This document shows, piece by piece, positions 1 through 21,625 of a DNA stretch of 24,369 nucleotides; position 1 is the first letter of the stretch, and each line of letters opens with the position of its first letter. The stretch is taken from contig JAGBZZ010000014.1 in NCBI GenBank assembly GCA_017652965.1, forward strand, positions 1-24,369, written 5' to 3'. The stretch is from Clostridia bacterium. GTDB taxonomy: Bacteria; Bacillota_A; Clostridia; Oscillospirales; CAG-272. The translations under genes and the position numbers were made by a program. The notes under the pieces are model-generated. The model worked only from the letters and a program-made list of their open reading frames with translations, did no database searches and had not been told where the DNA came from.

Positions 1-1151
1 CGGGGCGGCTCGGCCGCGTCTCGCGGGGGGGCGTCCGCCCCCTCGGCCATCGGTGCGGCCGGCGGGGTCTCGACCCTACGCAGTGGGGGCGTGGGGGCGG
101 CCTCCTGCGGCGGCACGGGTACGGTGGCGGCAGGGGGCGGGGCGGTCGGCTCGGCCGTGGGCTTTGCCACGACCTCGATCTCATCGGTTGTCGGGTCCTC
201 GGGCAGGTAGCGACGGCGGAAGCGCGCCTTGGGGATGGGGGCGGTATGCTCGTCCGGCCGTTCGGTAGCCAGGCGGTAGGCACTTCCCTCTTCTCTGAGC
301 GGGCGTGCATGCCCCGTCAGAAGATCATCAGGCAGACGGTCAAGCACGCGAAGCATATCGGCCGCCCCGTCAAAGCGGGCGGCGGGATCCTTTTCAAGGG
401 CACAAAGCACGATCTTTTCCATCGCGCCCGGGATGCTCGGATTGCGAAGGGTCGGGGGCTCGGGCTTTTTGGAAAGATGCATCATGGCAACGTCGGCGGG
501 GCGCTCGGCCTCAAAGGGGACACTGCCCGTGAGCATCTCGTACATCAGAACGCCGAGAGAATACAGGTCGCTTCTCTCGTCCACCGCGCCGCCGCCTGCC
601 TGCTCGGGGCTGACGTACTGCACGGTACCGACGGTGCGGTCGGGCATTAAGAAGCTATCACGGTCGGGCAGGCGGGCAATGCCAAAGTCGGTAACCTTGA
701 TACGCCCCTCTGTGGTGATAAGAATGTTACCCGGCTTGATATCGCGATGCACGATCCCGCGGCTATGTGCGGCATGCAGGGCATGCAGGATCTGGTTGGC
801 GCAGTTGGCGCTTTCCTTGACCGAAAGATGCCCGTGATAATTCAGATAATCCCGAAGCGTGATCCCGCAGACGTACTCCATGATGATATACATCTCGCCC
901 GACACCTCAAGGACGTCATAGACGTTGACGATATTGGGATGCGACAGGACGGCGGCCGCCCTTGCCTCGGTCATAAAATTGCGGGAGGCGGTGGGGGTGA
1001 TCTCCCCGCTCAGCACCTTGACAGCGACCGTGCGGTTCATCACCGTATCGCGGGCGAGATACACGTTGGCCGTTCCTCCACTCCCAAGGATTCCCGTGAC
1101 GGTATAATGGCCGGCAATGGTCGTGCCGGGCTGATAACGCGGATGCGACAT
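1..1151 (-). CDS. prkC: Serine/threonine protein kinase, PrkC/Stk type (3' end outside window)
   Basis: Eukaryotic-type (Hanks) kinase that phosphorylates proteins on Ser/Thr; members of this group are usually membrane proteins sensing cell-wall fragments. I translated 383 codons from an ATG at 1151 that is preceded by AAAGGAGAACCGTT. Visible motifs are the glycine loop GSGGTANVY (24-31), catalytic Lys45 in VAVK, HRDIKPGN with Asp137, and DFG at 155-157 followed by GIARLPDRDS. The kinase domain ends near residue 270. A Pro/Ala/Glu/Thr-rich juxtamembrane linker runs from about residue 310 to the window edge. No membrane segment or PASTA repeats have been reached, so those are only expected from the family. 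It starts 20 nt after the PP2C stop, the prpC-prkC order of B. subtilis, so the phosphatase is its likely antagonist. Confidence 0.93.
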   Translation of the reverse strand, partial: MSHPRYQPGTTIAGHYTVTGILGSGGTANVYLARDTVMNRTVAVKVLSGEITPTASRNFMTEARAAAVLSHPNIVNVYDVLEVSGEMYIIMEYVCGITLRDYLNYHGHLSVKESANCANQILHALHAAHSRGIVHRDIKPGNILITTEGRIKVTDFGIARLPDRDSFLMPDRTVGTVQYVSPEQAGGGAVDERSDLYSLGVLMYEMLTGSVPFEAERPADVAMMHLSKKPEPPTLRNPSIPGAMEKIVLCALEKDPAARFDGAADMLRVLDRLPDDLLTGHARPLREEGSAYRLATERPDEHTAPIPKARFRRRYLPEDPTTDEIEVVAKPTAEPTAPPPAATVPVPPQEAAPTPPLRRVETPPAAPMAEGADAPPRDAAEPP

Positions 1152-1171
1152 AACGGTTCTCCTTTCCTTTG

Positions 1172-2950
1172 TCAGATCTGTAAAAGCGCGACGGCAATGT
1201 TATCCTCGCCCCCGCGCTCATTGGCGGTGGCGATCAGATATCCGACCGCGACGGCGGGAGAAAGCTGTTGGGCAAGAATGCGGGCGATCTGCCCGTCACT
1301 CAGCATTTCCCACAGCCCGTCCGAGCATAAAAGATAGGTATCACCGCGCCGTACAACCCCCGAAAGCGGCAGAAGCTCCTGCCGCCCGAGCGAGCCAAGG
1401 GCGCGGGTAATCACGTTGCGGCGGGGGTGAAGGCGTACCTCCTGTGGCGTGATCCTGCCGGCATCCACAAGCGATTGCACGTAGGAATCGTCGTGGGTCA
1501 GAGGAACGAGATCCCCCTCTCGGAAGAGATAGGTGCGGCTATCCCCCACGTTGAGAAGCGTCACCGTATCGCGAAGGAGCAAAAGCGCCGTCACGGTGGT
1601 GCCCATACCGCCCCGCTCCTCCTTCTCGGAGGCGTACAGGCGTATGCGCTCGTCGGCCGTGCGGGCGGCCAGAACGAGAAGTGCCTCCCCCGCCTTCTGA
1701 TCCTTTGGCGGTGTGGCGGTAAAGATCTCGCGGAAGGCGTTGAGGGCAAGCTCAGCGGCGACGTCCCCGTCGGCATGGCCGCCCATCCCGTCAAAGACGG
1801 CGGCAAGAAGCCCACCCCCCGCAAGCGGAAGGGTCAGGGTCCTGTCCTGGTGATAGGGGCGCACACGGCCCCTGTCGCTATTGGCAAAGTACTGCACCGC
1901 ACACTCCTCCGTTCTTTTGGCGTGGGCGCGGCGCAGCTGGCCGCAGGCGGCGTTGACGTCACTCCCTAAGCGACGGCGCACCGTGGCGGTGACACCAAGC
2001 CCCTCGAGGCGTGCGGCAAAGGCGGTGGCCGCCGAAACCGAGGTACCGGTAAAGCCGGTCTCCTTGACGGCGTTCACACGGATAAGGTTCACGTGGATGG
2101 GGGCACCGTCCGCCCCGACGGTAGAGCGCAAAAGCGTGGCCAGGCGGGCGGCATCGGCAGGGGTATCGTTTTTCCCGGCGATGAGGGCGTATTCAAAGGA
2201 TATCCTGCGCCCCGTGGTGGCAAAATATTCGGTGCAGGCGGCCATAAGCTCGGCAATCGGGTAGCGGCGGTTGATCGGCATGATCTCACTGCGCCCCTCG
2301 TCGGTGGCCGCATGCAGTGAGACCGACAGGGTGATGGGAAAGCCCTCACGGGAGAGACGCCGGATGCCGTCCACAAGGCCGCAGGTGGAAAGCGAGATAT
2401 GGCGATATCCGATATTCAGCCCATCCGGGTGATTGACAAGACGCAGAAAGCGCACCACGTTATCGTAGTTATCAAGCGGCTCACCGATGCCCATCAGCAC
2501 GATACCCGAGACCCGCTCGCCCGACAGGCGCTCGGCGGCGATGACCTGCCCCAGCATCTCGGAGGGGAGAAGGTCACGCACCTTACCGCCGATCGTGGAG
2601 GCGCAGAAGCGGCAGCCCATGCGACAGCCGACCTGGCTGGAAATGCACAGGGTGTTGCCGTGGTGGTACTTCATCAGAACGCTTTCAATGCACTCCCCGT
2701 CCAAAAGACGGAAGAGGTACTTGACCGTCCCGTCCGAGGGCGAGACCAGCATATCCTCCAGGGTCGGCATGCGCCATTCAAAGCGCTCTGCCAGTGCCGC
2801 GCGCAGGGATTTGGGAAGAGTGGACATCTCGGCAAAGGGTGTCCCCTCGGTCATATGGCGGAAGATCTGCCCTGCACGGTAAGCGGGCTGCCCCATCTCC
2901 TTGACGGTGACCGCCAGCTCCTCGGGCAGGAGCGACAAAATATCTTGCAT
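1172..2950 (-). CDS. rlmN: In-frame RlmN (23S rRNA/tRNA m2A methyltransferase) plus PP2C phosphatase (PrpC) reading frame
   Basis: Residues 1-351 are a complete RlmN: the radical-SAM cluster CRMGCRFC (Cys109, 113, 116), Cys102 in TLCISSQVGC and Cys336 in NAACGQLR match the E. coli catalytic pair Cys118/Cys355. It methylates C2 of A2503 in 23S rRNA and A37 in some tRNAs. Residues 352-592 are a complete PP2C-family Mn/Mg phosphatase: GRVRPYHQD (361-369), DGMGGH (387-392), GDS (469-471), SDG (542-544), EDN (582-584). The usual Asn of the R..N(E/Q)D motif is His367. No stop separates the two. A GTG at 1897 with GGAGGAG six bases upstream would start a normal 241-residue PrpC, so either a fusion, two products, or both are possible. 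The ATG at 2950 overlaps the rsmB stop (TAATG). Confidence 0.9.
   Translation of the reverse strand: MQDILSLLPEELAVTVKEMGQPAYRAGQIFRHMTEGTPFAEMSTLPKSLRAALAERFEWRMPTLEDMLVSPSDGTVKYLFRLLDGECIESVLMKYHHGNTLCISSQVGCRMGCRFCASTIGGKVRDLLPSEMLGQVIAAERLSGERVSGIVLMGIGEPLDNYDNVVRFLRLVNHPDGLNIGYRHISLSTCGLVDGIRRLSREGFPITLSVSLHAATDEGRSEIMPINRRYPIAELMAACTEYFATTGRRISFEYALIAGKNDTPADAARLATLLRSTVGADGAPIHVNLIRVNAVKETGFTGTSVSAATAFAARLEGLGVTATVRRRLGSDVNAACGQLRRAHAKRTEECAVQYFANSDRGRVRPYHQDRTLTLPLAGGGLLAAVFDGMGGHADGDVAAELALNAFREIFTATPPKDQKAGEALLVLAARTADERIRLYASEKEERGGMGTTVTALLLLRDTVTLLNVGDSRTYLFREGDLVPLTHDDSYVQSLVDAGRITPQEVRLHPRRNVITRALGSLGRQELLPLSGVVRRGDTYLLCSDGLWEMLSDGQIARILAQQLSPAVAVGYLIATANERGGEDNIAVALLQI
1895..1910 (-). 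promoter_or_regulatory. prpC: Internal Shine-Dalgarno and GTG start for the PP2C half
   Basis: On the minus strand GGAGGAG (1904-1910) lies six bases before GTG (1895-1897). The GTG opens the residues VQYFANSDRGRVR, exactly where PrpC/Stp-type phosphatases begin. It is in frame with rlmN, which has no stop codon before it. A free 241-residue phosphatase could therefore be made by internal initiation. Confidence 0.6.
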
Positions 2951-4260
2951 TATTTTCTCCTAAGCTTAGCCATAAAAAAGCCGTCCGTCCCGTGGCGATG
3001 CGGCCACAGGGTCAGCATTCCCCCCTCCGAGGTAAGGCCGCCGACGGTAAAATCTTCGGTATAAAAATCGGGATGGCGGGAAAGAAAGGCGGTGACCGCC
3101 TCCCCGTTTTCCTCGGCCGTCAGGGTACAGGTGGAAAAGACCATTGTGCCACCGGGGCGCAAGGCCGTGGCGGCGGCATCCAGGATGCGCGAGGAAAGCG
3201 CACAAAGCTCGGCCACCGAGGAAAGGCCGCGATAGCGCAGATCCGGCTTTTTGGCGATGACACCAAGCCCCGAGCAGGGGACGTCACAGATGATACGGTC
3301 GACCTTCCCGCACAGTGCGGGGTCGGGCACCGTGGCATCCCACACCTCGGCCGTTACCGAGCCGAGCCCCAGGCGCTCTGCCCCCTCGGTGATGAGGGGA
3401 AGCTTGCTTTCGTGAATATCGCGGGAGCGGATGCGTGCCCCATCCCCGGCAAGGAGGGCGGCCGAAAAGCTTTTGCCGCCGGGGCATGCACAAAGGTCCA
3501 GGATAAGCTCGCCTGCCCTCGGGGCAAGCAGCTCGCCCGCCAGCTGAGAGGCGGCATCCTGCACGAAGAAATATCCCTCGCGGTAGCCCGGCAGGGCGGT
3601 AAGGGGCACCGCGCCGACAAGGCGGATGCCGTGTGCCGTCATAGGGTCGGGCATAGCCTCATAGCCCGCCTCGGCAAGGAGCGCAAGAAGCGCCTCTCTT
3701 GTCAGCTTTTGCGTATTGACGCGCAGAAAAAGCGGAGGACGGGTATTGAATGCGGCAAGAAGCGCGCGTGTTTCGGCCTCTCCAAGGCGACCGAGAAAAT
3801 AGCGCACGGTAGCCGCAGGGATCGAATACGCGACAGAAAGATGGCGGGCAAGATCCCGCGCCGCAGGGGGCGGCGCAAGACGGTCGGGCGCTTCGGCGGC
3901 GGCGCGCAAAACGCCGTTCAGAAGGGCACGCTCGCCCTTATCCTTGCCGAGAGACACCGTGGCATGCACGGCGGCATGCGGCGGGATATTCATATACAAC
4001 AGCTGATACAGCCCAAGCCGCAGGGCGGCACGGGTGTGCGGTGTCAGCGAGGCGGCGCTACGCCCTGCCAGCACCCCTATGTAATGATCCAGCGTCAGCG
4101 CCCGCTCGACCGCCCCGTAAAAAAGGGCAATCAGAAGCGCGCGGTCACGCGCCTCCATCCCCGAAAGGCGCTCCCCGTCAGCCAGGAGATTGGCATAGCC
4201 ATCCCCTGCCTCGTAGCGCAAAAGGAGCGAAAGCGCGCCGCGGCGGACAGGATCAGTCAC
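2950..4260 (-). CDS. rsmB: 16S rRNA (cytosine-967-C5) methyltransferase RsmB
   Basis: SAM-dependent enzyme forming m5C967 in 16S rRNA. The 436 residues comprise an N-terminal NusB-like RNA-binding domain (about 1-140) and a Rossmann methyltransferase domain (about 170-436). Visible motifs are the SAM loop DLCACPGGKS (255-264), DVPCSGLG with Cys329, and STCT with Cys378; these are the two cysteines used by RNA m5C methyltransferases. The chosen start is GTG at 4260, which overlaps the end of the upstream protease gene by 8 nt. I see no clear Shine-Dalgarno there, so translation is probably coupled. The TAA stop shares its last base region with the rlmN ATG (TAATG). Confidence 0.95.
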   Translation of the reverse strand: MTDPVRRGALSLLLRYEAGDGYANLLADGERLSGMEARDRALLIALFYGAVERALTLDHYIGVLAGRSAASLTPHTRAALRLGLYQLLYMNIPPHAAVHATVSLGKDKGERALLNGVLRAAAEAPDRLAPPPAARDLARHLSVAYSIPAATVRYFLGRLGEAETRALLAAFNTRPPLFLRVNTQKLTREALLALLAEAGYEAMPDPMTAHGIRLVGAVPLTALPGYREGYFFVQDAASQLAGELLAPRAGELILDLCACPGGKSFSAALLAGDGARIRSRDIHESKLPLITEGAERLGLGSVTAEVWDATVPDPALCGKVDRIICDVPCSGLGVIAKKPDLRYRGLSSVAELCALSSRILDAAATALRPGGTMVFSTCTLTAEENGEAVTAFLSRHPDFYTEDFTVGGLTSEGGMLTLWPHRHGTDGFFMAKLRRK

Positions 4261-4963
4261 GGTTACGACCCACGATCTGTGCTACGCGGATCACAAGGCG
4301 CAGAATCTGTGCCAGCGTCACGGCGAGGGCGGCCACGTAGGTCATGGCGGCGGCCGTCAGCACCTTGCGGGTCCCCGCGATCTCGCCCTCGTCCAGGTAG
4401 CCGGACTGCCGCAGGGTCTCCACCGCGCGGCGCGAGGCGTTGAACTCCACCGGCAGGGTCACAAGCTGGAAGAGCGCCGTCAGCGAAAAGAGCGCAATGC
4501 CAAAATAGGCAACAACGGCAAAGGCCTCGGAAAGCAGGCAAAGAAGGATGCCAAGCAGAATGACCCACACACTAAGGCGTGAGCCGATATTGGTCACAGG
4601 AACCAGCGCGGTGCGGATACGGCCGGGCAGATACTCCTCGGCGTGTTGCACGGCGTGCCCCGCCTCATGGGCGGCAACACCTGCCGCGGCGGCGCTTGTG
4701 CCGCCATACACCGCATCCGAAAGATAGATGGTGTTGTCACGCGGGTCATAATGGTCGGTCAGCTCGCCATCGCAGTGCCGTACCTCCACCCCCACAACAC
4801 CGTGATCCCGCAGGACCATACGGGCTACGTCTGCCCCGCTCATCCCACAGGAAAGGGGCTCGCGGGAGTAGCGCTTATAGGTCGCAGTCACCGAGGCCGA
4901 GGCCAGGGCGGCAAGCAAAGCAAAGGGCAGAACGATGATGAGATAGTAGATGTCAAAATACAT
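4253..4963 (-). CDS. yugP: YugP-type membrane zinc metallopeptidase
   Basis: Predicted integral-membrane zinc protease of the YugP family (neutral zinc metallopeptidase); substrates are not established. The protein has 236 residues. Membrane segments are visible at about 3-23, 131-150, 152-172 and 201-225. The zinc motif is HEAGH (His99, Glu100, His103), with a candidate third ligand Glu173 in PVEFNAS. The start at 4963 (MYFDIYYL) is chosen because GGAGGAGATATT precedes it directly; an upstream in-frame ATG at 4993 has no such site. It sits between fmt and rsmB, a position this family occupies in many Clostridia. Confidence 0.9.
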   Translation of the reverse strand: MYFDIYYLIIVLPFALLAALASASVTATYKRYSREPLSCGMSGADVARMVLRDHGVVGVEVRHCDGELTDHYDPRDNTIYLSDAVYGGTSAAAAGVAAHEAGHAVQHAEEYLPGRIRTALVPVTNIGSRLSVWVILLGILLCLLSEAFAVVAYFGIALFSLTALFQLVTLPVEFNASRRAVETLRQSGYLDEGEIAGTRKVLTAAAMTYVAALAVTLAQILRLVIRVAQIVGRNRD

Positions 4964-5011
4964 AATATCTCCTCCTTTTCGCACCTCGCGCAACGAAGTG
5001 CAAAGAAAACT

Positions 5012-8722: not shown

Positions 8723-9040
8723 TTACTCGTCGGCTTCCCCGGTGGCCTCTGCCACGGCCGGCTCGGCAGTCTCGGCGGTCTCGGCCACGCGATACATCCG
8801 ATAACGGCCCTCAGCCAGGCGGGTGATGGCGATCTTGACCGCCTTCTGATCGCGGTACTCGCTGTCGATCAGGGAAGCCAGGGGCTTCTCGGTCTCACGG
8901 TTGGCGATCATACGGTCTGCGCGGGCTCTCTGCTCCACGTATTCATCGGTGACGCGGCGGGCGCACTTGGCGGCGCCGATCACCAGCTCGTAGCGGTTGA
9001 ACTGACCCTTGGTAAGCTCGGAAATCGAAGGTTTGATCAT
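8723..9040 (-). CDS. rpoZ: RNA polymerase omega subunit
   Basis: Small subunit that wraps the C-terminal end of beta' and helps RNA polymerase assembly. It has 105 residues. The omega core runs from about 3 to 80 (ISELTKGQFNRYELVIGAAK, then the VKIAITRLAEG region). It is followed by an Ala/Glu/Thr-rich acidic tail of about 25 residues that is probably disordered. The ATG at 9040 has only a weak AGAAGA upstream. It lies 41 nt after remA; in B. subtilis gmk separates the two. Confidence 0.93.
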   Translation of the reverse strand: MIKPSISELTKGQFNRYELVIGAAKCARRVTDEYVEQRARADRMIANRETEKPLASLIDSEYRDQKAVKIAITRLAEGRYRMYRVAETAETAEPAVAEATGEADE

Positions 9041-9081
9041 GGTGTGTTCTTCTTTCTATAGCGTATTTTTTTAAAACTTGG

Positions 9082-9321
9082 TTATTCGGCCGCCCGCAGT
9101 CTTTCGGAAAGCTCGGGCGGGGTGAGGGGGGACAGAAGCACAAGGCCGCAATCGGTCACCAGGACCGAGCGGGTCTTTTGCCCACAGCTGACGTCAATGA
9201 TGCGTCCCTCCTCGCGGGCATCCTGACACAAGCGCTTGATGGGGGCGGTCTCGGGAGAGGCCACGGTCACCACACGGCCGACGGCCACAAGGTTTCCAAA
9301 GCCGACGTCAATAAACTTCAT
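9082..9321 (-). CDS. remA: RemA/DUF370 family DNA-binding regulator
   Basis: Member of the RemA (YlzA, DUF370) family. In B. subtilis RemA activates extracellular-matrix and osmoprotection genes by binding DNA as a ring-shaped multimer. It has 79 residues. The N-terminus MKFIDVGFGNLVAVGRV, the SPETAPIKR motif and the ILS-like VLLSPLTP segment are typical. A GGAG lies 10 nt before the ATG, inside the end of yicC; the yicC stop is 6 nt upstream. The yicC-remA pairing is conserved in Firmicutes. What it regulates here is unknown. Confidence 0.93.
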   Translation of the reverse strand: MKFIDVGFGNLVAVGRVVTVASPETAPIKRLCQDAREEGRIIDVSCGQKTRSVLVTDCGLVLLSPLTPPELSERLRAAE

Positions 9322-11216: not shown

Positions 11217-12440
11217 ATGGCGATCTTTTATCTTTCAGGCGGCAAGCTTTGCCGCTACGGCGAGGACGGCCACCGCGAACTGCCGAACGGCATCCTTGAC
11301 CGCACGGCCGAGCGCATCCGCACCTCGGCACGGCGCGAGGAATGGAAAACGACCGGCAGCGGGGCACGCTTTATGAACGGCGAGGGGGGTGCCGCCTCGG
11401 CCGAGGATCGCGTGGCGAGCCTGCAGGCTACGGTGGGCGGCCTTGCCTTTTTCGGGGATCGCCTTGCCTATCGTCTTACGATAGACGAGGTATCCGGCAT
11501 CTATACCAAGCGCCATCCCGACGACACCGAGGAGGGTATCCTTTACAGTGACAGTACCCGCGCCTTTGGCGACCTTGCCGTGGCCGAGGACGGCCTCCTT
11601 GTCTCGGTGGGGTATGCCGGGCAGTCTCACATCGCGCTTTTGCATGAAGAAACGCGCGAGCTGACCATCCTGACCGAGGGGCGAACGGTCGATACCTCCC
11701 CTGCGGTAGACCCTACCGACCGACGCAGCTTTTATTTTTCCAGTGCCGGGCTTTCGGACACCGTGCAGGACGAGGAGGAGGAGATCCCAAGATCCCTGCC
11801 CGAGCTGCTTCTGGCCATGCATAAGAAGCGCCCGGAGGACGTCGTGGGGCCGGCCGCCATCTTGCATATGGATGCCGGGCGCACTGTCCTTTCCGAGGTA
11901 CTGGCCGACCCGCATTACGATTATCTCCGCCCCTCTGTCGGCAAGGACGGGACCCTGTATTATCTGCGCCGTCCCTACCGTGAGGAAAAGCAGGGGGTAT
12001 CCCCCCTCGGCTGTCTTACCGACATTCTGCTTTTCCCCTGGAATCTTTTGCGCGCCCTTTTCGGATTTTTCAACTTCTTCAGTATGAAGTACGGCGGCAA
12101 GCCCCTCTCGCACGGCGGAAGTGCGGCACGCCACCGCAGTGAGCGGGAGGTCTTTCTGGAGGGCAACCGCATTGAAGCCGAAAAGGAGCTTAAAAGGAAC
12201 AGACGGGACGAATTTCCGGGGATCGTGCCCGCCTCGTACGAGCTATGGTGCCGCCGCCCGGACGGAGAGTGCCGCAAGCTTGCCTCGGGGGTATATGCCT
12301 ACGCCCTGCGGGAGGAGGACATTCTGCTTTCGAACGGCTCGGCGATCCTGCGGCTTTTGCCAAGCGGCAAGCGTGAAAAGCTGACCGATGCGCGCCACGT
12401 GACGCGCATTGCCACCTTCCCGGCATCTAAAAACCCGTAA
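11217..12440 (+). CDS. Beta-propeller-like protein of unknown function with an internal hydrophobic segment
   Basis: I do not recognise this 407-residue protein as a named family. It has repeated stretches of beta-strand character resembling TolB/WD40-like propeller blades, for example GDLAVAEDGLLVSV, SPAVDPTDRRSFYFSSAG and RPSVGKDGTLYYLRRPY, where a strand is followed by a D-G or D-R turn. No signal peptide is visible (start MAIFYLSGGKLCRYG), so it is probably cytoplasmic. A markedly hydrophobic aromatic stretch at about 267-290 (FPWNLLRALFGFFNFF) interrupts the propeller and could be a membrane-contacting loop. A charged segment follows (310-335). The start ATG has GGGAGG six bases upstream. 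The gene stands alone behind its own strong promoter. Confidence 0.8.
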   Translation: MAIFYLSGGKLCRYGEDGHRELPNGILDRTAERIRTSARREEWKTTGSGARFMNGEGGAASAEDRVASLQATVGGLAFFGDRLAYRLTIDEVSGIYTKRHPDDTEEGILYSDSTRAFGDLAVAEDGLLVSVGYAGQSHIALLHEETRELTILTEGRTVDTSPAVDPTDRRSFYFSSAGLSDTVQDEEEEIPRSLPELLLAMHKKRPEDVVGPAAILHMDAGRTVLSEVLADPHYDYLRPSVGKDGTLYYLRRPYREEKQGVSPLGCLTDILLFPWNLLRALFGFFNFFSMKYGGKPLSHGGSAARHRSEREVFLEGNRIEAEKELKRNRRDEFPGIVPASYELWCRRPDGECRKLASGVYAYALREEDILLSNGSAILRLLPSGKREKLTDARHVTRIATFPASKNP

Positions 12441-15962: not shown

Positions 15963-18704
15963 ATGCGACTTCGTATTGAGGAGGATCTCTTCCTCCACCG
16001 TCAGCCCGAAATGGCCTTTATCGAGGATCTGAAAAAGCCTCTGCATACCGAGACCCCGCCCGGATGGAACAAGCGCCGCCCGAAGGAAAACGAGGTCTTT
16101 ATCGAAAGCCTTACCCTTGTGGGCGCCTTCCCCGACCCCGAGGGGCTTCTTGTCACTGCCTATGAGGATTTCGGAAGGTTTATGAAATCGGCAGGGATCC
16201 GCGAGGGGGCAGGCTTTCGCATCGTCACCGAGCAAGGTAAGACCGAGTGCCGCGAGGCCTATCGCATCCTGATAACCCCCGAGGAGTGCCGCCTGATCGC
16301 CGCCGACACCGAGGGCATCCGCCGCGCCCTTATTTATCTTGAGGATGAGATGCAGCGGCGCGAGGGCAGCCTTCTGCCGCTTGGTGCGATCGAGCGCCGC
16401 CCCTTTATCAAGACCAGGATCTCCCGTTGCTTCTTTGCCCCGCCCAGCCATGCCTCCAACCTCGGCATGGAGAACGAGCTGGCATCCGACATTGACTATT
16501 ACCCCGACGAATATCTGAACCGCCTGGCACACGACGGCATCAACGCCCTGTGGCTTGGGGTCACCTTCCGTGAGCTTTTGCCGTCACGCGTGATCCCCGA
16601 GTTCGGCACCGACGGCGAGCGGCGCCTCAAGAAGCTGAACGAGGTGGTGGCAAAGTGCCGCCGCTACGGCATTGCCATCTATATCTTCTGCAGTGAGCCT
16701 GCCTCCACCTTCCGCAATCCCATTCCCTTTGAAAAGCATAAGGACGTCCTTGGCGGCCTTTTCTGGCCGGCGAAGAACGCCTGGACCTTCTGCCATATCA
16801 GCGAAAAGGGGGCGGCCTACGTGGAGGAGGCCTTTACGACCCTTTTCCGCCGTGTACCTAACCTTGGCGGCCTTATGATGATCACCACCGGGGAGACGAC
16901 CTCCTCCTGCGGCTCTGTCCCCCGTATGCTTTGCCCCCGCTGTCGCGAGCGCTTTGGCACGGTAGGCAAGACCCTGGCCGACCTTGAGCGCACCGTGCGC
17001 GACATCATGGACCGCGAAGCGCCGGATGCCGAGTTTATCAGCTGGACCTACTCACAGCGTGCCTGGAAGCGCGAGCTGATCGAGGAGACCTGCGAGGAGC
17101 GTGACCCGCGCGTGATCCATATGCAGAACTTTGAGGATCTTTGCGAGGTGGAGCAGCTTGGAAAGACCCGCCTTGCCGCCGACTACTGGCTGTCTGTGGT
17201 TGGGCCCGGGCGCATTTTTTCGCAGTCCCTGGAGATCAACCGCCGCCGCGGCGTGCGGATGTTTGCCAAGATCCAGGCCTGCTCCTCTCACGAGATCTCA
17301 ACCGTGCCGTACGTGCCCGCCCCCGGCATCCTTTACGATAAGTACAAGTTCATGTACGAAAACGGCATCACGGGGGTGGTGCATTGCTGGTACTTCGGCA
17401 ACTATCCCTGCCTTATGAACAAGGCGGCGTGCGAGCTTTCCTTCCTCCCCCGTTTTGAAAACAAGCACGAATTCCTTGTGCATCTGGCCGGTATCGCCTG
17501 GGGGCAAAGCCATGCCGAGCAAGTGGCCACCGCCTGGGAGGCGATCGAGAAAGGGTATCGCGAATTCCCCGTGAACATCGCCTTTGAGTGGCTGGGCCCG
17601 ATGCAGGACTCCCCCTCCTCCCCGCTTCATCTGTTGCCGGCCGACCTGCCCATGCCCAGCACCTGGCTGCTTGGTGACGGCAATCCCTCGGGCGGGGACC
17701 GTATCGGCGAATGCATGCTGAACGGCCACACCGAGGAGGAATGCGTGACCCTGACCGGCCGTGTAGCCGACGGGGCGCGGCGCGGCGCCGCTATCATCGC
17801 CTCTCTCCCCGACGGGGGATACGGTGAGCGCACCGAGCAGAAGAGCGTGGCCGAGGCACTTGCTCTTATCTTTGAAAGCGGACACAACGTCGTGCGCTTT
17901 TACACCCTGCGCCGCCTGCTTGGCATCGGTAAGGGGGACGTCTCGGGGATCCTTGACGAGATGGAGGCCATCGCAAGGCGCGAGATCGAGATCTCGCGTG
18001 CCCTCATTCCCATTACCGCTGCCGACAGCCGCATCGGCTATCACTCGGAGGCGCACGGATACAAGATCTTCCCCGATAAGCTTGCCTGGCGGATCGGCGA
18101 GGTGGAAAGGGTGTTACGCGAAGAGTTTCCCGCTTTGCGCCGCCGCATAGCCGACGGGCTTTACCCCCTGGCCTTTTACCGTGGCGAGGAGGAGGGGGCA
18201 CGGCGCTACCTTATTGCGCATGCCCCTGTAGAGAGCTGTGAGTGGATGGACTTTTTGCAAAAGGACGGCACGCCGGACCCCGCCACCTCTATCCGCGTAG
18301 CCGAGACCGAGGACGGATACTGCCTTGAGGTGCGTATCCTTGACGGTGAGGATACGGTGTGGTTCAGGCCTGAGTTCCGCATGTTCCACCCGAGCCTGCC
18401 CTTTGGTGTCAGCTCGCTCGGTATTCCGATCGAAAACGACCTGCAGTACTCGGTGTACGACAACCGCGCACGGGAGATCAAGGCGCGCTTTACCTATGCC
18501 GCGCGTGAGTGCGAGGGCGGCAAGATCTACACCCTCACCTTCCGCCGTGCCGACTTTGACATGGAGAAGGGCGAGCCCTTCCGCCTCAGTGCTACCCGCG
18601 CGGGGCGCGGGACTGTCCTCTCACTTCCCGACCGTATGTTCTCCCGCCTGATCCAGGGGAGCTATTCTCCCGACTCCTACGCCTTCTTTGTGCCCGAGGC
18701 ATAA
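15963..18704 (+). CDS. Cytoplasmic GH20-like glycoside hydrolase-type protein, exact family unknown
   Basis: A 913-residue protein I cannot assign to a specific enzyme. Residues about 45-150 look like the alpha/beta domain that precedes the barrel in GH20/GH67-type enzymes (an AYRILITPEECRLIAAD strand pair and a GIRRALIYLEDEM helix, then PLGAIERRPF). A TIM-barrel-like part follows (about 155-480), with YPDEYLNRLAHDGINALWLG on an early strand, a possible acidic residue Glu311 in ITTGETTSSCG, and a Cys pair CPRC (324, 327). A helical part runs to about 725. The end (about 735-913) resembles a family-9 carbohydrate-binding or DOMON-like beta domain. There is no signal peptide. AAGGAGAG precedes the ATG and the gene is 30 nt behind pdp, so it is co-transcribed with the nucleoside genes. 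Confidence 0.72.
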   Translation: MRLRIEEDLFLHRQPEMAFIEDLKKPLHTETPPGWNKRRPKENEVFIESLTLVGAFPDPEGLLVTAYEDFGRFMKSAGIREGAGFRIVTEQGKTECREAYRILITPEECRLIAADTEGIRRALIYLEDEMQRREGSLLPLGAIERRPFIKTRISRCFFAPPSHASNLGMENELASDIDYYPDEYLNRLAHDGINALWLGVTFRELLPSRVIPEFGTDGERRLKKLNEVVAKCRRYGIAIYIFCSEPASTFRNPIPFEKHKDVLGGLFWPAKNAWTFCHISEKGAAYVEEAFTTLFRRVPNLGGLMMITTGETTSSCGSVPRMLCPRCRERFGTVGKTLADLERTVRDIMDREAPDAEFISWTYSQRAWKRELIEETCEERDPRVIHMQNFEDLCEVEQLGKTRLAADYWLSVVGPGRIFSQSLEINRRRGVRMFAKIQACSSHEISTVPYVPAPGILYDKYKFMYENGITGVVHCWYFGNYPCLMNKAACELSFLPRFENKHEFLVHLAGIAWGQSHAEQVATAWEAIEKGYREFPVNIAFEWLGPMQDSPSSPLHLLPADLPMPSTWLLGDGNPSGGDRIGECMLNGHTEEECVTLTGRVADGARRGAAIIASLPDGGYGERTEQKSVAEALALIFESGHNVVRFYTLRRLLGIGKGDVSGILDEMEAIARREIEISRALIPITAADSRIGYHSEAHGYKIFPDKLAWRIGEVERVLREEFPALRRRIADGLYPLAFYRGEEEGARRYLIAHAPVESCEWMDFLQKDGTPDPATSIRVAETEDGYCLEVRILDGEDTVWFRPEFRMFHPSLPFGVSSLGIPIENDLQYSVYDNRAREIKARFTYAARECEGGKIYTLTFRRADFDMEKGEPFRLSATRAGRGTVLSLPDRMFSRLIQGSYSPDSYAFFVPEA

Positions 18705-19258: not shown

Positions 19259-19369
19259 GTCCCTGTATGTAATTGTCATTTCTCTCTTTCGGCCGTGCCG
19301 CTCTCCCGCGCAAGCCCCGTTTTCCTTACGCGCGCGGCCGCAAAATACACACGCATTGGAGATATTCTT

Positions 19370-21625
19370 ATGCTTGTTCCCTATTCGGTCATCCTGCTTG
19401 CCGCCCCCCCGGTCATTGCCCTTGCCGTATACTTCTCTCTTCTCAGAAGCCGCAAGGTCATGAATCTCGGCTTTACCATGGTCGGTAAGCGTGAATTCAC
19501 CAGAAAGCTTTTATCGCTTCTGCTTCTTGCCCTGTTTGTGACCCGCCTTTTCCGCCATGACGCGATCTACCACCAGCTGGGGCTTGGAGATCCCGAGGCC
19601 CTGATGCCTGCCACCGAGACGATCCTGGCTACGGCTTCCCGCTGGTTCGGTCTCCTTTCGGTCTCTATGGCGATCCTTGCCCCCTTCTTCCGCAAAAGGG
19701 AGCTGCACGATTTTGTTGCCTTCTTTGCCCCGCTTTCGGTCGCCTTTACCGCCGTAACACTTTCCGGTAACCTCGTCTCCATCTCCGGAAATGCCGATCC
19801 CCTCTACTGGCGCGGCATCCTCTTTATGGGGGAGACCCTCCTTACCGGTGTGATCGCCTGGTCCGAATTTTTACTGCTTTTGCGGCGGCGCGCCTTCGGG
19901 GGCGGCTGGCGGCGTATCGGGCGTCTTTTCACCTTCCTTCTCACCTATCTTTTCCCCTTCATGCCGGTGTGGGCGCCCGCCGTCCTTTTCGGCGAATTCG
20001 GGGATAAGACCAAGGGCTTTTCGCTTGAGCACCGCATTTTCATCTATATCGGCATTTTTCTGATCTTTTACTTCTACATCCTTTTGCGCAACCGCTCCTA
20101 TGACGAGCGCTACTTTGCGGTGGTTGCCCTTGCGGCCTCGGCCTTCTTCAACTACTTCTCGGTCAGCCGTACCGGCCTTTCAGGCCTGCCGCTTCACCTT
20201 TGTAACACCGCCATCATGATGATGCTGGTGACCTACGTCTTCCGTCTGCGCGGGCTTTTCTACTTCACCTACCTTGTCAACGTGCTTGGGGCGGCGTTTG
20301 CCATCATCATGCCAAGCCCCGACACCTTCTTCTCGGATCCCGGCTCGCTTCTCTTCTGGTACAACCACATCTACGCCTTTGCCCTGCCCGTCCTTGGGGT
20401 GGCGCTGGGCATCTTCCCGCGGCCGAACTTCAAGATGATGAAGAAGGCTATCGGCGTCTTTACCCTTTACTTTGTGGCGGTGATGATACTGGACGGCTGG
20501 TTCAACCATGCCTCCTTCAATACGACAGGTGTCGAGGTCGACTACTTCTTCCTCTATTCCACCTTCTACATCGAGAAATTCGCCTTTGCCACACCCCTTT
20601 ATAAGCCCTTTGACGTATACATCGGCGATCAGCTGATCCGCTTCTTCCCTCTGTATCAGCTGACGATCTACGTGATCTTCATTGCCTCCATGTTTGCCCT
20701 TTGGGGGATTTATGCCGTCCTTTTCCGTGTGGCGGATGACCACAAGGAGCTGACACGGCGCAAGAACCTTCTGCGGGACGCGCACCTCCGCCTGCTTGCA
20801 GAGCTCGGGGACAAGCCGCTGTCCGAACCACTCAATCCGGAGGGAAAAAATATGATCAAAATCGAGCATTTTTCCAAGATCTACAACGGCTCTACCCGTA
20901 AGTCTGCCGACGATATCAACCTGGAGATCCACGCCGGTGAGGTCTTTGGCTTTATCGGCCATAACGGCGCCGGAAAATCCACCACCATCAAAAGCCTTGT
21001 GGGCATCCAAAGCATCACCGAGGGACGGATCGAGATCGAGGGCTACGACATCTCCCGCCAGCCGATGGAGGCCAAGATGCACATCGGCTACGTTTCGGAC
21101 AACCATGCCGTATACGAAAAGCTGACCGGGCGCGAATACGTCAACTACGTGGCCGACCTTTACCGCGTACCGACGGCCGAGCGCGAGGAGCGGCTTGCCA
21201 AGTACACCAAGATGTTCCACCTCGAGGAGGCCATTGACCGTGAGATCAAGGGCTACTCGCACGGTATGAAGCAGAAGATCATGGTGATCTCGGCCCTGAT
21301 CCACAATCCGAAGGTATGGGTGCTGGACGAGCCCCTGACAGGCCTTGACCCCACCTCCTCCTACCAGATCAAGCAGTGCATGCGCGAGCATGCCAACGAG
21401 GGGAACATCGTCTTCTTCTCCAGCCATATCATCGAGGTCGTGGAGCGCATCTGCGACCGCATCGCCATCATCTCGGGCGGGAAGATCTGCCATTACTGCA
21501 CGATGGACGAGATCCACGCCTCCGGGCGCTCGCTTGAGGAGATCTATCTCGACTACATCGACGGGCCCGAGGGCGCCATGCTTGCCGCCGAGCGTGCCGA
21601 GAAGAAAGCCGGGGCAAAAAAATGA
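19370..21625 (+). CDS. Membrane protein with YwaF-like (TIGR02206) domain joined in frame to an ABC transporter ATPase
   Basis: The reading frame has 751 residues. Residues 1-494 carry about 13 hydrophobic segments. The second half resembles YwaF-family membrane proteins (GLPLHLCNTAI, a YLVNVLGAAFAIIMP segment, WYNHIYAFALPVLGVALG), and the first half looks like a degenerate copy. Residues 495-751 are a complete ABC-2 type ATPase: Walker A GHNGAGKST (530-538), signature GYSHGMKQK (degenerate LSGGQ), Walker B VWVLDEP (649-655), H-loop SSHIIE. The Q-loop reads GYVSDN, without Gln. The ATG at 19370 has GGAG eight bases upstream. An in-frame ATG at 20852, with its own GGAGGG, begins the ATPase, so a fusion or two products are possible. 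The stop overlaps the permease start by 4 nt. Confidence 0.85.
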   Translation: MLVPYSVILLAAPPVIALAVYFSLLRSRKVMNLGFTMVGKREFTRKLLSLLLLALFVTRLFRHDAIYHQLGLGDPEALMPATETILATASRWFGLLSVSMAILAPFFRKRELHDFVAFFAPLSVAFTAVTLSGNLVSISGNADPLYWRGILFMGETLLTGVIAWSEFLLLLRRRAFGGGWRRIGRLFTFLLTYLFPFMPVWAPAVLFGEFGDKTKGFSLEHRIFIYIGIFLIFYFYILLRNRSYDERYFAVVALAASAFFNYFSVSRTGLSGLPLHLCNTAIMMMLVTYVFRLRGLFYFTYLVNVLGAAFAIIMPSPDTFFSDPGSLLFWYNHIYAFALPVLGVALGIFPRPNFKMMKKAIGVFTLYFVAVMILDGWFNHASFNTTGVEVDYFFLYSTFYIEKFAFATPLYKPFDVYIGDQLIRFFPLYQLTIYVIFIASMFALWGIYAVLFRVADDHKELTRRKNLLRDAHLRLLAELGDKPLSEPLNPEGKNMIKIEHFSKIYNGSTRKSADDINLEIHAGEVFGFIGHNGAGKSTTIKSLVGIQSITEGRIEIEGYDISRQPMEAKMHIGYVSDNHAVYEKLTGREYVNYVADLYRVPTAEREERLAKYTKMFHLEEAIDREIKGYSHGMKQKIMVISALIHNPKVWVLDEPLTGLDPTSSYQIKQCMREHANEGNIVFFSSHIIEVVERICDRIAIISGGKICHYCTMDEIHASGRSLEEIYLDYIDGPEGAMLAAERAEKKAGAKK
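20839..20854 (+). promoter_or_regulatory. Internal Shine-Dalgarno and ATG start for the ABC ATPase half
   Basis: GGAGGG (20839-20844) lies seven bases before ATG (20852-20854), which opens MIKIEHFSKIYNG, the usual N-terminus of an ABC-2 ATPase. It is in frame with the membrane domain and no stop intervenes. A free 257-residue ATPase could be made in addition to, or instead of, the fusion. Confidence 0.6.

Follow-up and report, generated by a model that had tools for sequence, protein, structure and literature searches.

In this stretch of 24,369 nucleotides, hereafter the window, the genes for the RNA methyltransferase RlmN and for a PrpC-type PP2C phosphatase lie in a single open frame (1172..2950, minus strand). 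We propose that the rlmN stop was lost recently, and in this lineage only, at a coupled operon junction, and that the locus would now yield an RlmN-PP2C fusion together with some free PrpC, a reading that we consider reasonably probable. The absence of a stop is confirmed in the sequence as given. The frame starts with ATG and runs stop-free through 592 codons plus a terminal stop, the open reading frame list and the family matches agreeing on its content, so that the sequence-only reading was right to place rlmN and prpC in one stopless frame with both domains complete. The junction codons are AGA ACG GAG GAG TGT GCG GTG CAG TAC TTT (R T E E C A V Q Y F), and these exact letters are absent from all 269 loci examined. 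Among the 17 stand-alone relatives in our alignment, 12 end at the position of codon 350 (TGT, Cys; 1901..1903, minus strand).

The gene order is rsmB-rlmN-prpC-prkC. Upstream, the TAA of rsmB (2950..4260, minus strand) shares one base with the ATG of rlmN (TAATG, 2952-2948), and downstream the kinase domain of prkC (3..1151, minus strand) runs off the window; its best NCBIfam match, PknB_PASTA_kin, scores 361 bits, below the cut-off of 450. We considered a plasmid or viral origin and set it aside, since positions 1-5000 of the window had no megablast match among plasmids and a pattern search of IMG/VR with the fusion gave none either. No Rfam family reached its gathering score in the window, and no tRNA was found in it. 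Elsewhere in the window (8723-9321, minus strand), remA (PF04025) adjoins an rpoZ-like frame (PF01192, 21.5 bits, below the cut-off of 26), and no guanylate kinase gene separates the two, as one usually does. Two plus-strand frames, 15963-18704 (913 aa) and 11217-12440 (407 aa), had no Pfam or NCBIfam match at an E-value of 0.001.

Both halves of the fused frame have the features of complete domains. The RlmN part (residues 1-345; 1916..2950, minus strand) matches TIGR00048 over residues 3-345 with 329.8 bits, above the equivalog cut-off of 290. Cys109, Cys113, Cys116 and Cys336 fall in invariant alignment columns; we take the first three to be the CxxxCxxC radical-SAM cysteines and the fourth to be the C-terminal methyl-carrying cysteine. 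The PP2C part (residues 352-592 plus the stop; 1172..1897, minus strand) matches PF13672 with 44 bits against a cut-off of 24, PP2C family matches covering residues 368-554. Asp369, Asp387/Gly388, Asp470, Asp544 and Asp583, presumably the residues of the PP2C metal site, are present and are invariant in an alignment of seven fusions. The score against NF033484 (Stp1/PrpC) is 202.7 bits, under the equivalog cut-off of 230, and the separate PrpC falls below the same cut-off in 6 of the 12 prpC-bearing genomes of the genus of G691, the closest genome found (RlmN 78%, PrpC 60%, tblastn). We thus call the C-terminal half a PrpC-type PP2C on the basis of PF13672, gene order and fold, and not an NF033484 equivalog.

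The predicted structure of the fusion has a mean pLDDT of 92.2 and a pTM of 0.71. Confidence by block is 80 for residues 321-330, 79 for 331-340 and 72 for 341-350, and the model carries a helix (338-349) nearly straight into the first PP2C strand (353-359). Solved structures of RlmN (6fz6) and of PstP (1txo) match the model with TM scores, by target length, of 0.92 and 0.90, respectively. Between the window and G691, dN is 0.168 and dS 0.854 for RlmN, and dN is 0.349 and dS 1.025 for PrpC, ratios which span mostly the time before the fusion. Altogether, neither half looks decayed at the sequence level, and the possibility of decayed or partial domains was dropped in view of the family matches, the dN/dS values, the structure model and the TM matches. 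The earlier description of a complete RlmN running into a complete PP2C is therefore borne out.

The same holds for the claim that a ribosome site stands where PrpC should begin. GGAGGAG (1904..1910, minus strand), a putative prpC ribosome-binding site inside the 3' end of rlmN, lies six bases before an in-frame GTG (Val352; 1895..1897, minus strand), the inferred internal start of free PrpC, so that both elements of an internal in-frame start are present at the domain border. This GTG aligns with the ATG of the separate prpC of G691, which opens ATGCAGTACTTCGCCAAC; the corresponding GTGCAGTACTTTGCCAAT of the window aligns from the first codon. The motif by itself was rejected as strong evidence. 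Indeed, of 395 internal sites in 17 window frames, 8 have GGAGG placed 4-10 nt ahead of an in-frame start-like codon, Val352 included (a count in which a few gene starts are approximate and the frames right), and so do 24 of 3547 internal sites within rlmN of relatives. The anti-SD duplex energy at Val352, -10.4 kcal/mol, ranks about seventh of the 395. Since such sites are not rare, the motif alone is weak evidence; as far as the alignment can tell, its position at the ancestral prpC start is strong evidence. A hairpin is predicted to cover the GTG and to hold most of the ribosome site in its loop, and it might restrict the synthesis of free PrpC. It has a z-score of -3.54 over 53 nt, a stretch chosen after the fold had been viewed. 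As a possible regulatory element it deserves no more than a weak remark, because the 77-nt stretch around the prpC start has a z-score of -0.49 only and no counterpart was found among the 12 relatives.

The closest relatives have a stop at this junction. A first protein search listed 120 proteins, six of them full-length RlmN-PP2C fusions and 114 of stand-alone RlmN length, and the 17 aligned relatives were picked from these 114. The closest among the matches listed, P0003 (94% RlmN identity; 9 member sequences on 4 contigs), is stand-alone, as is the next, P0004; 12 of the 17 are 349 aa long and thus end right where the window has Cys350. In the genus of G691, a PrpC-length match (at least 190 bits) is found in 12 of 69 genomes, the other 57 having none or one of at most 44 bits. 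These genomes may be incomplete, and the PrpC phosphatase seems, from such matches, to be often lost in this genus. In none of the 12 is rlmN fused to prpC. Ten of them have a candidate prpC start that overlaps the rlmN stop by 4 or 1 nt (ATGA, GTGA, TGATG, TAATG) and hence does not share the rlmN frame (shift 2); prpC is out of the rlmN frame in 11. The sequence-only reading had asked whether close relatives carry the same stopless junction or a stop. They carry a stop: P0003 ends at residue 348, and rlmN has its own stop in all 12 prpC-bearing genomes of the genus. The fused state is thus not common to sister species, and an old fusion shared across the clade was rejected because the sister, P0003, is separate.

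Another frame of the window served as an internal control. At 19364-21625 (plus strand), a YwaF/TMEM164-like membrane domain and an ABC ATPase also share one frame; at the ABC border, an in-frame ATG follows GGAGG at a distance of 8 nt. Like RlmN-PP2C, it is thus joined with an internal GGAGG and a start at the domain border. Unlike RlmN-PP2C, this fusion is conserved, being stop-free and reaching into both domains in 20 of the 69 genomes of the G691 genus. Conserved fusions are therefore detectable in these genomes, and RlmN-PrpC is not one of them. The internal GGAGG and ATG are kept in G691, and among 21 sequences only the window and G691 have a start codon at the aligned ABC border, the other 19 loci being without.

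The window is not alone in joining the two domains. Six clean fusions stood among the 120 matches listed (P0001, 70%; P0002, 69%; P0007, 54%; P0057, P0086, P0090, 47%), P0090 with five sequences on three contigs and P0001 with two sequences on two contigs. A profile search from seven fusions gave 10 fused proteins among 120 matches listed, five of them new and, in our reading of their sequences, damaged: P0240-P0242 appear to carry junction deletions, and P0243 and P0246 show apparent frameshifts. P0057 and P0240 are represented by one sequence each, on 2 and 1 contigs, and near-identical RlmN proteins of the P0057 lineage are separate (P0247, P0248 and P0251, on 104, 103 and 164 contigs). A search with the PP2C region listed 120 matches with P0002 as the only known fusion among them, which shows the protein searches to be incomplete. 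Searches of whole genomes with queries of fusion length, which were E-value-limited and may miss weaker cases, added G804 (locus L230; 51% to P0090), the sole stop-free full-length match listed. In G804 no stop interrupts the junction, AAGGAG stands nine bases ahead of the in-frame ATG where PrpC begins, and among the matches listed no stop-free full-length one came from the 11 other genomes of its genus. Seven of the eight clean fusions (window, P0001, P0002, P0007, P0057, P0090 and G804) have M, V or L where PrpC ancestrally began, the start codon itself being known for the window and G804 only; the eighth, P0086, has a Met one residue off. P0017, an RlmN of 351 aa, agrees almost exactly with the window over its first ~130 residues and differs strongly from it thereafter, and so probably stems from a chimeric metagenome contig.

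A tree of 128 RlmN sequences, 12 of them fused and built by a quick method, pairs the window with P0003 (support 99), P0004 joining them at 97; both of these relatives are unfused. P0001 groups with P0002 (84), and the remaining eight fused rows are far from the window, P0007 being placed elsewhere on a flagged long branch of unsure position. Left out were P0017, P0244 and P0245 (internal duplications), loci below 60% identity, duplicates, fragments shorter than 300 aa and rows with stops; L230 was found later. The tree requires six label changes, at least five of them forced by well-supported branches, and G804 is additional. On these sequences, RlmN-PP2C fusions recur at scattered places, and the idea that the fusion of the window is unique was abandoned in view of the protein searches and G804. 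The sequence-only reading knew of no described RlmN-PP2C fusion; the domain pair exists in protein databases, in the six clean and five damaged cases besides G804, and the portions of the literature available to us on RlmN with PP2C, with PrpC and PrkC, or with fusion proteins describe none.

How readily this junction fuses can be judged from 214 distinct rlmN ends, a set selected by similarity in which in-frame pairs are favoured: prpC lies within 400 nt in 176, and two, the window and G804, are fused. Among the 146 unfused pairs in frame, in a sample biased towards such pairs, 99 have a single stop between the genes, and a fusion is therefore easily reached. The frequency of in-frame prpC was rejected as a clade signal because the match ranking favours in-frame pairs and prpC is out of frame in nearly all prpC-bearing congeners of G691. 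Elsewhere in the genus of G691 the frame after rlmN is different: at L023, L063, L146, L149 and L156, examples from the genomes without a PrpC-length match, it resembles RsgA, and L145 has a kinase-like frame there.

We propose the following course of events. The ancestral rsmB-rlmN-prpC-prkC operon was probably translationally coupled at the rlmN-prpC junction, with the prpC ribosome site inside the 3' end of rlmN. Once the rlmN stop was lost, ribosomes would run on through prpC and make one RlmN-PP2C protein of ~592 residues. At the kept GGAGGAG and GTG, internal initiation would continue to supply some free PrpC, probably competing with the ribosomes that arrive from rlmN. Starting from in-frame ancestral genes, a single base change could have removed the stop; starting from an overlapping junction like that of the congeners, a small indel could have done so. 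Here we take the base sequence to be correct and the fusion to be tolerated, not selected. Because the frame is open, the domains look complete and the ancestral start and ribosome site are kept, one would naturally predict a fusion together with free PrpC; this part of the two-product proposal stands as reasonable. What is not supported is a lasting or unique link of rRNA methylation to the PrkC switch, given the unfused P0003, the 12 of 12 stops in the congeners and the fusions found elsewhere beside separate-gene relatives.

On the other hand, rlmN and prpC could be separate in the real genome, and the stopless junction could then reflect an error of sequencing or assembly, or a minor allele; the contig is probably a metagenomic one. 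We find this rather unlikely. In its favour, a sense codon sits exactly at the stop position of most aligned relatives, near-identical genes can in rare cases appear fused (P0057 and P0240 against their separate counterparts), and such artefacts do occur, as the five database fusions with junction deletions or frameshifts and the chimeric look of P0017 illustrate. If the route was a single base change, a base error in the assembly could account for the junction; however, if the ancestor was overlapping (shift 2), one miscalled base would not be expected to yield this junction. Moreover, G804 is a separate fusion at the DNA level, and the P0090 and P0001 fusions are repeated observations. One could also assume a selected two-product locus, in which the fusion puts the phosphatase that opposes PrkC on an RNA methyltransferase and internal initiation supplies free PrpC. 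Both sets of catalytic residues are intact, the fused model is a confident prediction and the start residue persists in seven of eight clean fusions, as mentioned above; the available part of a study in Bacillus subtilis reports that PrkC and PrpC act on EngC and EF-Tu (PMC4014445). However, the sister is unfused, none of the 12 congeners is fused and the fusions are scattered over the tree, and young fusions would equally be expected to retain the start residue, so that we regard selection at this locus as highly improbable. Hardly less doubtful to us is a recurrent two-product design in Clostridia, in which one mRNA would give a methyltransferase-tethered and a free phosphatase, with some of the activity that opposes PrkC bound to ribosome or tRNA substrates; the window would then represent one independent gain among several. 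We rate the case, which comes from one sequence, as a stop loss that is recent or possibly spurious; losses of this kind turn up occasionally at this junction.

If the fusion is real and used, rRNA/tRNA methylation would be tied to Ser/Thr phosphatase activity on one chain. More generally, a coupled operon junction can turn into a fusion while the downstream start persists, a plausible intermediate in the evolution of fusion proteins, and the scattered cases form a natural series in which the tolerance, use or removal of such intermediates could be studied.

A parallel can be drawn with three known arrangements. The window shares its domains, their order and a prpC site at the end of rlmN with systems in which a stand-alone RlmN (TIGR00048) is followed by a PrpC/Stp1-type PP2C and PrkC, as in G691, and differs from them in having no stop between rlmN and prpC. 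According to the parts available to us of two reports, same-strand gene pairs lie at -4 or -1 nt far more often than at any other distance, with tightly coupled translation across these two distances (PMC10666635), and RNA unfolding and ribosome scanning or reinitiation have been proposed as models of the coupling (PMC10666635, PMC12548453). This is the form of rlmN-prpC in G691 and nine congeners, whereas the window has lost termination before prpC. Finally, P0001, P0002, P0007, P0057, P0086, P0090 and G804 combine, like the window, a complete RlmN with a complete PP2C in 587-606 aa and differ from it in lineage and linker; G804, like the window, also keeps the internal ribosome site.
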